Assembly: GCF_002750975.1 (NCBI RefSeq)
Contig: NZ_PEJS01000001.1
Coordinates: forward strand, 2,666,001 to 2,730,000
Direction of reading: 5' to 3'
Length of the DNA stretch: 64,000 nucleotides
Source: Stenotrophomonas indicatrix
GTDB taxonomy: Bacteria; Pseudomonadota; Gammaproteobacteria; Xanthomonadales; Xanthomonadaceae
In this document: positions 11,525 to 53,200 of the stretch, piece by piece
How positions within the stretch are numbered: position 1 is the stretch's first letter
How the letters are laid out: every line of letters starts with the position of its first letter
Made by a program: the position numbers and the translations under genes
The notes under the pieces: generated by a model
Seen by the model: only the letters and a program-made list of their open reading frames with translations
Told to the model about the DNA's origin: nothing
The model's database searches: none

Positions 11525-11600
11525 GGCCGAGTAGCTCAGTTGGTAGAGCAGGGGATTGAAAATCCCCGTGTCGGCGGTTCGATTCCGTCCTCGGCCACCA
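11525..11600 (+). tRNA. tRNA-Phe(GAA), first copy
   Basis: A 76-base cloverleaf with encoded CCA. Acceptor GGCCGAG/CTCGGCC, anticodon stem GGGGA/TCCCC with loop TTGAAAA (anticodon GAA), and T arm GGCGG-TTCGATT-CCGTC. Identical to the copy at 11643. Confidence 0.97.
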
Positions 11601-11606
11601 CTTTCG

Positions 11607-11636
11607 AAGACCTGCAGAAATGCGGGTCTTTTTTTT
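11607..11636 (+). terminator. Terminator after first tRNA-Phe
   Basis: AAGACCTGC / GCGGGTCTT hairpin (one G-U pair) with an AGAAAT loop and a run of eight T. If it works, the second tRNA depends on readthrough or its own promoter. Confidence 0.85.
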
Positions 11637-11642
11637 CTACAT

Positions 11643-11718
11643 GGCCGAGTAGCTCAGTTGGTAGAGCAGGGGATTGAAAATCCCCGTGTCGGCGGTTCGA
11701 TTCCGTCCTCGGCCACCA
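11643..11718 (+). tRNA. tRNA-Phe(GAA), second copy
   Basis: The same sequence as the first copy, starting 118 bases later. The 3' flank is also duplicated, so the unit copied was tRNA plus terminator. No separate promoter is visible in the 42-base gap. Confidence 0.97.
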
Positions 11719-33325: not shown

Positions 33326-35227
33326 TTACGCGCCCTCGGCCTGGAGCCGCTCGGTGAAAGCCTGGAGGCTCATGCTGCCGAGATCTTCGCCAGAACGCGT
33401 ACGCACCGCCACAGCGCCGTTTTCCTTCTCGCGGTCACCAATGACCAGCAGGTACGGCACGCGCTGCAGCGTGTGCTCGCGAATCTTATAGCCGATCTTC
33501 TCGTTACGCAAATCGGCGCTGACGCGGAAGCCTTGATCCGCAAGGCTTTTGGTCACCGCAGAGACGTATTCAGCCTGCGCATCGGTGATATTGGCCACCA
33601 CCACCTGGGTCGGCGCCAGCCAGGCCGGGAACTGGCCGGCATGGTGCTCGATCAGGATGCCCAGGAAACGCTCCATCGAGCCGACGATGGCCCGGTGCAG
33701 CATCACCGGATGCTTCTTCTGGCTGTTTTCGTCCACGTATTCAGCGCCCAGACGGCCAGGCATCATGAAATCGACCTGCATGGTGCCCAGCTGCCAGGTG
33801 CGACCGATGGCGTCCTTCAGGTGGTACTCGATCTTCGGGCCATAGAAGGCGCCCTCGCCCGGCAGCTCCTGCCATTCCACCCCGCAGCTGGACAGCGCCG
33901 AGCGCAGCGCGCCCTCTGCCTTGTCCCAGGTGGCGTCATCGCCCAGGCGCGATTCGGGGCGCAGCGCGATCTTGACCTGGATCTCCTCGAAGCCGAAGTG
34001 CTGGTACACCGCCAGCGCCTGCTGGTGGAACGCGGTCACTTCCGCCTCGACCTGGTCTTCGGTGCAGAACACGTGACCGTCGTCCTGGGTGAAGCCACGC
34101 ACGCGCAGGATGCCGTGCAGCGCGCCGGAGGGCTCGTTGCGGTGGCAGGCGCCAAACTCACCGTAGCGGATCGGCAGATCGCGGTAGCTGTGCAGCCCCT
34201 GGTTGAACACCTGCACGTGACCCGGGCAGTTCATCGGCTTGAGCGCGTAGGTACGCTTCTCCGACTCGGTGAAGAACATCGCGTCCTGGTAGTTGTCCCA
34301 GTGGCCCGATTTCTGCCACAGCGACACGTCCAGGATCTGCGGGCAGCGCACTTCGCCGTAGCCGGTGCTGCGGTACACCTTGCGCATGTACTGCTCGACC
34401 ACCTGCCACAGCGCCCAGCCCTTCGGGTGCCAGAACACCAGGCCCGGGGCCTCTTCCTGCAGGTGGAACAGGTCCTGCTGCTTGCCGATGCGACGGTGGT
34501 CGCGCATCTCCGCTTCTTCGATGCGCTTGATGTACGCATCGAGCTGCTTCTTGTCGGCCCAGGCGGTGCCGTAGACGCGCTGCAGCTGCTCGTTCTGCGC
34601 GTCGCCGCGCCAATAGGCGCCGGAAATGCGGGTCAGCTTGAAGGCCTTCAGGAAGCGCGTGTTCGGCACGTGCGGGCCGCGGCACATGTCCACGTATTCC
34701 TGGTGGTAGTACATGCCCATCGCCTGGATGTCAGGCGACATGTCCTCGATCAGGCGCAGCTTGTAGTCCTCGCCACGGGCCTTGAAGATCTCGATGACTT
34801 CCGCGCGCGGCGTCACTTTCTTGATGACGTCGTAGTCCTGCGCGATCAGCTCGCCCATGCGCTTTTCGATCGCCGCCATGTCTTCGGGGGTGAACGGGCG
34901 CTCGGAGTAGATGTCGTAGTAGAAGCCCTCGGCGATCACCGGGCCGATCACCATCTTCACGTCCGGATAGAGCTGCTTGACCGCGTGGCCGACCAGGTGG
35001 GCACTGGAGTGGCGGATGATTTCCACGCCCTCCTCGTCCTTGGCGGTGATGATGCGCAGGGACGCATCGTGGTCGATGACGTCACTGGCATCGACCAGCA
35101 CGCCATCCACCGAACCGGCGATGGTGGCCTTGGCCAGGCCGGCGCCGATCGACTGGGCGACGTCCATGACGCTGACGGGGTTTTCGAATTCGCGGCGGCT
35201 GCCGTCGGGAAGGGTAATCGTGATCAT
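33326..35227 (-). CDS. thrS: Threonine--tRNA ligase
   Basis: A 633-residue class II synthetase. The TGS domain ([20 protein letters not shown]) is followed by the editing domain with [16 protein letters not shown] and the catalytic core (YFDMCRGPH-like [20 protein letters not shown]; motif 2 [20 protein letters not shown]). It ends with an anticodon-binding domain ([20 protein letters not shown]). It charges tRNA-Thr and edits Ser-tRNA. The 65-bp-plus leader upstream carries a short Thr-rich ORF and a terminator. infC follows by 64 bases, as in E. coli. Confidence 0.98.
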
Positions 35228-35294
35228 TGCAATGGCTTCATGCGGGGCCCGCCGTGGCGGGCTGGAAAGCGCTCCCGGGCTGTCGTCCGGGCAA

Positions 35295-35317
35295 TAAAAA
35301 AGCGCCGCGAGGGCGCC
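35295..35317 (-). terminator. Attenuator-type terminator in the thrS leader
   Basis: On the minus strand GGCGCC-CTC-GCGGCGC (core stem GCGCC/GGCGC) followed by TTTTTTATT, lying 68 bases upstream of the thrS ATG and 26 bases after the stop of a Thr-rich leader ORF. A terminator at this place makes sense only as a regulated one. Confidence 0.75.
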
Positions 35318-35342
35318 TGGAATGCAGGGCCTTCGGGGCAGG

Positions 35343-35369
35343 TCAACAGTGGGCGGTGGTAGTGCTCAT
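35343..35369 (-). CDS. Putative thrS leader peptide MSTTTAHC
   Basis: A nine-codon frame (ATG to TGA) encoding MSTTTAHC, three consecutive Thr codons (ACT ACC ACC) in eight residues. It lies between a likely thrS promoter and the leader terminator. The layout matches leader peptides of amino-acid operons, where a ribosome stalled at hungry codons prevents terminator formation. The ribosome site is poor (GAG in CCGAGCG), and the antiterminator pairing was not worked out. Too short for standard gene finding. Confidence 0.6.
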
Positions 35370-35431
35370 GTCGCACGCTCGGCCGGCGCAGTGCGCGGGC
35401 CACCTTGGTTCCAGGATGTGGTTGCCCGTGA

Positions 35432-35460
35432 TCTTAAACCAGCGGCGGACAAAGCCCAAG
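35432..35460 (-). promoter_or_regulatory. Probable thrS leader promoter
   Basis: On the minus strand TTGGGC (35460-35455) and TAAGAT (35437-35432) with a 17-base spacer. The transcript would start near 35425, about 56 bases before the leader-peptide ATG. The hexamers are moderate matches. Confidence 0.5.
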
Positions 35461-35646
35461 CGGTGCCTGAATGGCGCTGGCTGGCGGCGTGAAAACGCAA
35501 TGATTACCATGTCCGCGCAGCCCGCCCCGTGCCGGCCTGCCCGCTTCCCCCCAGGATCCTGCAATGCGCCACCCGCCCCGACCGGCGCCTGCCGGTCCCG
35601 CCCGTGCCCCGCGTTCACCGGCCCTATGCCGGGCCCGGAGCCGCCG

Positions 35647-52962: not shown

Positions 52963-53039
52963 TGGTAGCGGGGGCAGGATTTGAACCTGCGACCTTCGGG
53001 TTATGAGCCCGACGAGCTGCCAGACTGCTCCACCCCGCA
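52963..53039 (-). tRNA. tRNA-fMet(CAT), copy nearest rimP
   Basis: A 77-base initiator tRNA with encoded CCA. The anticodon stem TCGGG/CCCGA has the three G-C pairs that mark initiators, and the loop is CTCATAA. The first base T1 faces T72, so the 1:72 pair is open, another initiator mark. The position upstream of rimP matches metY in E. coli. Confidence 0.95.
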
Positions 53040-53050
53040 TCAGAAGCGGA

Positions 53051-53079
53051 ATTATGAGGGATAACTTCAAAACCTGCAA
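53051..53079 (-). promoter_or_regulatory. Promoter of the rimP-proximal tRNA-fMet
   Basis: On the minus strand TTGCAG (53079-53074) and CATAAT (53056-53051) with a 17-base spacer, ending 12 bases before the mature tRNA. Confidence 0.6.
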
Positions 53080-53123
53080 GCTTTTCCTCATTCATCGAAT
53101 TGGTTGGCGCCGATTCGATGTGT

Positions 53124-53200
53124 TGGTAGCGGGGGCAGGATTTGAACCTGCGACCTTCGGGTTATGAGCCCGACGAGCTGCCAGACTGCTCCACCCCGCA
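53124..53200 (-). tRNA. tRNA-fMet(CAT), copy nearest nuoN
   Basis: Identical over 77 bases to the copy at 52963, including the T1:T72 mismatch and the encoded CCA. The starts are 161 bases apart; the flanking DNA is not duplicated. Confidence 0.95.

Follow-up and report, generated by a model that had tools for sequence, protein, structure and literature searches.

A probable threonine-codon attenuator in the leader of thrS in Stenotrophomonas indicatrix and its relatives

Introduction

How does Stenotrophomonas indicatrix adjust its threonyl-tRNA synthetase to the supply of charged threonine tRNA? In E. coli, the synthetase encoded by thrS is a textbook example of translational self-repression, and the operator contains a hairpin within the split ribosome-binding site of thrS itself. 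Classic leader-peptide attenuators are known from the trp, his and thr operons and, among the synthetase genes, from pheST with its leader gene pheM, while T-box riboswitches sense tRNA charging and act through a terminator.

The stretch of DNA analysed here, called the window, comprises 64,000 nucleotides of contig NZ_PEJS01000001.1 (assembly GCF_002750975.1, positions 2,666,001 to 2,730,000). A preliminary description of it had seen the layout of a Thr-codon attenuator before thrS and had suggested looking in relatives for the Thr-codon ORF with its terminator, and for an antiterminator that pairs with the first terminator arm. The comparison presented below makes it likely, with a probability of roughly 85%, that thrS is controlled by a ribosome-mediated transcription attenuator that senses charged tRNA-Thr, from which a response to threonine is predicted; the leader would probably induce the synthetase when charged threonine tRNA is scarce. 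No description of a thrS leader peptide was found in the open-access literature, and an earlier description is possible. In passages of PMC2965389, the E. coli threonyl-tRNA synthetase is named once, as an autoregulator, and the word thrS is absent.

The thrS leader and its occurrence

On the minus strand, the sequence reads in order: a weak promoter-like pair, AGGTGG, a hairpin, a near-invariant stretch, a leader ORF, a spacer, a U-tailed hairpin, and thrS (33326..35227, identified by its relatives), which is the proposed regulated gene. ORF, U-tailed hairpin and thrS are thus as the preliminary description had them, and the element is compact, with about 130 nt. The best-scoring promoter-like pair is TTGGGC (35459-35454), 17 nt and TAAGAT (35436-35431), and from it transcription would start at about 35424. 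Of this earlier claim the pair itself stands, but it is weak: a strict promoter scan of the locus found none, and with a looser score the pair reaches 8.8 versus a mean of 8.2 +/- 1.0 in shuffled sequence. Over 172 distinct leaders the mean of the best upstream score is 9.5 versus 8.2 in shuffles, and the distance of the -10 element in the window is that of the median leader.

The conserved leader block is present once in the genome of S. indicatrix itself. An anchored search on 80 thrS loci of named genomes found the same block in 58 (L053 has no upstream DNA; L051 begins at the ORF and shows the block, but is not among the 58). From the 57 sequences in alignment A2 a covariance model was derived that covers the hairpin, the ATG and the first Thr codons. 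At E <= 0.001 this model has one match each in 243 of the 398 genomes of the order that were searched; two listed genomes of the own family and 153 genomes of the order's other families had no match. In a sample of the whole class the model matches only 3 of 274 genomes, namely that of the window, a second one from the genus and a third from the family. Together with the window, the 58 anchored loci, 100 fetched matches and 29 of 30 listed loci make up 188 leaders of this first class, 172 of them distinct (left out were L110, which is the window's own copy, and L081). In all 188, thrS follows on the same strand, with its start 92-635 nt (median 153.5) from the leader.

A very short reading frame with two conserved Thr codons

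The leader ORF (35369-35343) reads ATG AGC ACT ACC ACC GCC CAC TGT TGA and would encode MSTTTAHC, i.e. 8 residues and a stop. Such an ORF is too short for gene callers, and the element is absent from Rfam, in which no family matched the leader of the window or six related loci. In all 172 distinct leaders the frame is closed after 6-9 residues, in 145 of them after 8; shuffled sequence gives such a closure in a mean of 11 of 172 with a maximum of 19, and the other two reading frames have no stop at the end point of the leader ORF. The conservation of the stop codon is independent evidence, because positions beyond +12 lie outside the search model. The conservation of the Thr codons, by contrast, is partly selected, because the search model and the regular expression contained them. 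Within this limit, position 3 is Thr in 172 of 172 leaders (ACT in 169) and position 4 in 160 (ACC in 143), but position 5 in only 77, and codon 2 usually encodes Ser, in other leaders Ala, Asp, Arg, Glu or a further residue. The nine-codon frame with three Thr codons in a row is thus correct for the window, but as a sensor the triplet was rejected on the count at position 5. Judged from these leaders, the conserved core is two Thr codons, ACT ACC at codons 3 and 4 (35358..35363, the candidate sensor codons), and three in a row is a feature of the strain. ACT is rare, as it accounts for 1 of 82 Thr codons in five genes of the window.

The pattern of the ORF alone proves little, since a loose version of it (Met-x-Thr-Thr-Thr stretch, then TGA) occurs 7 times in the genome. 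That an unused short ORF just happens to stand before an ordinary terminator might find some comfort in this number and in the weak promoter, but the element is conserved across families at the same gene, and because of this conservation such a coincidence is very unlikely, to the point of being negligible. A longer, GTG-started frame that is seen in several loci was rejected: in the window the GTG is out of frame with the ATG, and the hairpin described below accounts for the sequence.

A start site apparently split by a hairpin

Upstream of the ORF lies a hairpin (35381..35401) of the form GGCC-C-GCGC ACT GCGC-C-GGCC, with AGG on one side and the ATG on the other. Changes on both sides are found at 7 of its 8 pairs, and 90% of the cells are paired versus 19-47% in slid controls, while the loop varies in alignment A2. 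In the AGGTGG motif (35400..35405), the GG is invariant and the A nearly so in the 57 sequences of A2; its last two bases also pair within the hairpin. First-class leaders without the hairpin occur in a further family of the order, in 5 of its 9 listed genomes (G066, G021, G011, G030, G059). In these (L313-L317), GAGGTGGCAC, which contains AGGTGG, directly abuts the leader ATG; a nine-residue ORF that starts with M-S/R-T and a U-tailed hairpin follow, with thrS 103-194 nt on. Because AGGTGG adjoins the ATG in these hairpin-less relatives, the comparison suggests that AGGUGG is the Shine-Dalgarno sequence of the leader ORF and forms the 5' part of a start site in two halves, with the hairpin looped out between it and the AUG. 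The leader ORF would thus have a hairpin-split start site, and the hairpin-less relatives make this idea directly testable. Of the three matches from another family that were fetched in the search for hairpin-less leaders, two were without thrS and the third ends at the contig end; L045 is identical to L313 in the part shown.

Between hairpin and ATG lies the stretch AGYGUGYGAC (35370..35379), which is nearly invariant in the 172 leaders. Its AGYGUG can form a second stem with CAnYGCU at the end of the ORF (+18..+24; in the window 35374-35379 with 35345-35351). The pair -8/+22 of this stem covaries, with 113 Watson-Crick pairs versus 94 in shuffles (0 of 2000 as many), and two other pairs tested showed no covariation. 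This stem may be a pause hairpin, which is a guess, or it may control translation of the leader. Part of the conservation is at the nucleotide level and could serve another sensor.

Terminator and antiterminator

The U-tailed hairpin of the window (35318-35300, 7 pairs, 5 of them G-C, loop of 5) is followed by a T run (35301-35296) and has the form of an intrinsic terminator; a scan of 1201 bases on both strands found 2 terminator-like sites versus 0.5 +/- 0.6 in shuffles. In 143 of the 172 leaders, that of the window included, there is a hairpin followed by 4 or more T in a row, and its stem starts 52 nt (median) past the ATG. In the other 29 the scan finds no T run, with L016, L022 and L130 as near misses. 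The difference can be found also within one genus, as L005, L006 and L012 of Xanthomonas are without the T run and L007, L008 and L080 have it. An intact ORF with a broken or missing T run was seen in L005, L006, L012, L118, L121, L133, L137, L144, L154, L209 and L210. Since the ORF is intact where the T run is lost, the output of the attenuator may differ or be decaying in those lineages.

In the spacer past the stop codon there is an element, of the CCGAGGCC or GCCACGCC type, which by folding pairs with the 5' arm and the loop of the terminator. This is the kind of partner that the preliminary description had proposed for the first terminator arm. In the window the 5' arm of the putative antiterminator lies at 35325..35340 and its 3' arm at 35303..35319, the latter being made up of the 5' arm of the terminator, its loop and the start of its 3' arm; the pairing is in the minimum-energy fold of RNA that is free from +18 or +21. 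With a ribosome at Thr3 or Thr4 the RNA would be free from about +18 to +21, and with a ribosome at the stop codon from about +36. When only the RNA left free 3' of a ribosome was folded, the median terminator probability in the 143 leaders was 0.07 with +21 as the first free base, 0.06 with +30, 0.75 with +33 and 0.99 with +36 (means 0.32, 0.29, 0.60 and 0.88), and the predicted switch point coincides with the footprint of a ribosome at the stop codon. The switch is found in 85 of 143 leaders, that of the window among them, versus 16-24% with shuffled spacers; among the 97 leaders of known family it is found in 46 of 62 of the own family and 14 of 35 of the second large family. In 32% of the 143 leaders the terminator is still the favoured fold when RNA is free from +21, and in 94 it is favoured in the naked leader.

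Specificity of the pairing was seen in a swap test: over 57 distinct loops, native spacer-terminator duplexes averaged -15.2 kcal/mol and swapped ones -13.0 kcal/mol, a difference that none of 5000 permutations reached. When the spacer was replaced by the ORF, native and swapped duplexes did not differ, and a fold test of the nascent RNA was flat (0.68 versus 0.65 in shuffles).

Proposed mechanism and alternative explanations

What sequence comparison shows is the leader ORF with its two Thr codons, the terminator and its pairing with the spacer, the 5' hairpin, and the position of the element ahead of thrS. These parts can be joined into the following model. RNA polymerase would start near 35424, and a ribosome would load on the leader ORF via AGGUGG, which the hairpin would bring near the AUG. 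With ample Thr-tRNA the ribosome would read ACU ACC, get to the stop codon and cover the start of the spacer, so that the antiterminator could not form, the terminator would fold and thrS would stay untranscribed. With scarce Thr-tRNA the ribosome would wait at codon 3 or 4 and leave the spacer free to pair with the 5' arm and loop of the terminator, and transcription would run into thrS. The attenuation reading of the preliminary description is supported by the Thr codons, the terminator and the spacer-terminator pairing.

It is conceivable that the ORF senses Thr-tRNA and that the output is another one than intrinsic termination, in that a stalled ribosome alters the access of Rho, the stability of the RNA or thrS translation, with the hairpin in a secondary role. 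The 29 leaders that keep the ORF without the T run would fit such an output, as would the two further leader classes described below, which by folding are mostly without a stable antiterminator, but a hairpin with T run at a set distance in 143 leaders, a switch point at the stop-codon footprint and the preference for the native spacer-terminator pairing in the swap test all speak for termination, and this alternative is considered unlikely. Less probable again is that threonyl-tRNA synthetase binds the leader as in an autogenous operator like that of E. coli, and that the short ORF is part of the protein-binding RNA without its translation being the sensor. The nucleotide-level conservation around the ATG and of ACT would agree with a bound protein, and so would a hairpin inside the start site; the loop of this hairpin varies, however, the position at which the reading frame ends is kept in all leaders, and an anticodon-like XGUA hairpin, present in many other gammaproteobacterial loci, is missing from those with the leaders described here (see below). 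Ribosome-mediated attenuation by charged tRNA-Thr is thus the preferred reading.

Comparison with known regulators

The leader of the window has a conserved ORF with Thr codons, a terminator between this ORF and the gene and, according to folding and the swap test, an antiterminator that depends on the position of the ribosome. These are the sequence-level features of a leader-peptide attenuator; the response to threonine that defines such an attenuator is predicted. Like in the classic attenuators, a short ORF with cognate codons and mutually exclusive antiterminator and terminator structures precede a gene of that same amino acid. The differences are that the gene is thrS, that the ORF has only 6-9 codons with the sensor codons at positions 3-4, that one of these is a nearly invariant rare ACT codon, and that the start site is apparently split by a hairpin. 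The Thr_leader family of Rfam (RF00506), which is the leader of the enterobacterial thr operon, also has Thr codons and a terminator but controls another gene. In the genome its covariance model gave no match above the cut-off, and the 36 sub-threshold matches all lie away from the thrS leader; membership in this family was therefore rejected.

With the thrS operator of E. coli the leader shares the gene and a hairpin inside a split ribosome-binding site, but the hairpin is here part of a separate ORF that lies upstream and is followed by a terminator. In the 100 nt ahead of thrS none of 187 class I loci and none of 25 class II loci has an anticodon-like XGUA hairpin, nor is there one in the leader of the window, whereas an anticodon-like hairpin with CGUA or GGUA in its loop stands there in 19 of 32 other gammaproteobacterial loci (L248-L272 and L056, L057, L061, L063, L065, L070 and L074). 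An operator of the E. coli type was thus rejected, and the contrast that the preliminary description had drawn with E. coli holds. In L261 and L262, the anticodon-like units are apparently repeated, as judged by eye. A T-box would likewise sense tRNA charging through a terminator, but here the proposed sensor is a translated ORF; the window gave no match to the T-box model of Rfam, and 35228-35500 gave none even with E allowed up to 10, and this assignment was rejected as well.

Most sampled genomes of the order's two largest families seem to use thrS attenuation that depends on tRNA charging, unlike E. coli, and this would be a case of regulator replacement at one essential gene.

Other leader classes before thrS

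A second class of leader has the order GAG, CGTAG, a 4-bp hairpin, ACGATCACC and ATG ACG CGN, with an ORF of 7-9 residues that is mostly MTRT... with few variants, and a U-tailed hairpin. A model built from six sequences finds it in 21 of 398 genomes of the order, mainly where class I is missing, as in G333. In 25 of 26 class II leaders (L023, L030, L037, L066, L067, L076 and L220-L239) thrS is downstream; the remaining one is at a contig end.

A third class occurs in another order of the class, that of G503, and is marked by GGTTATGACACCGCGAACT with peptides MTPRT..., in two cases MTPLT.... A search for GGTTATGACACCGCGAACT with up to 2 mismatches gave 25 places in 22 of 200 genomes, of which 20 precede thrS and 5 do not. 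A hairpin with T run is present in all 20 thrS-linked places and in L039 (Aquincola tertiaricarbonis). Thr codons are found within positions 2-5 in all three classes. The fold switch was mostly not seen in classes II and III, where the mean terminator probability from +21 was 0.78 and 0.69, values that stand without a shuffled baseline.

Taken together, it seems somewhat more probable than the contrary that very small Thr-sensing attenuators have replaced the synthetase-binding thrS operator in this order and also, there with different sequences, in a second order of the class. The start site of the leader would be split by a hairpin and the sensor would lie in the first elongation steps, here with a near-invariant rare ACU, so that just after initiation the ribosome would read how well one tRNA-Thr isoacceptor is charged.

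In some loci (L010, L023, L026, L032, L066, L067 and L076), tRNA gene sequence with CTACCTTGACATGGTAG was seen by eye just upstream of the leader or thrS, which is not the case in the window. The window has two pairs of adjacent tRNA genes elsewhere (11525-11715 on the plus strand and 52966-53200 on the minus strand), with equal scores within each pair, and these are perhaps tandem duplicates. The third-class loci are L039, L273-L283, L285 and L287-L294, and in L273-L277 the codons CGCGAAC can, by eye, pair with a downstream GTTCGCG.
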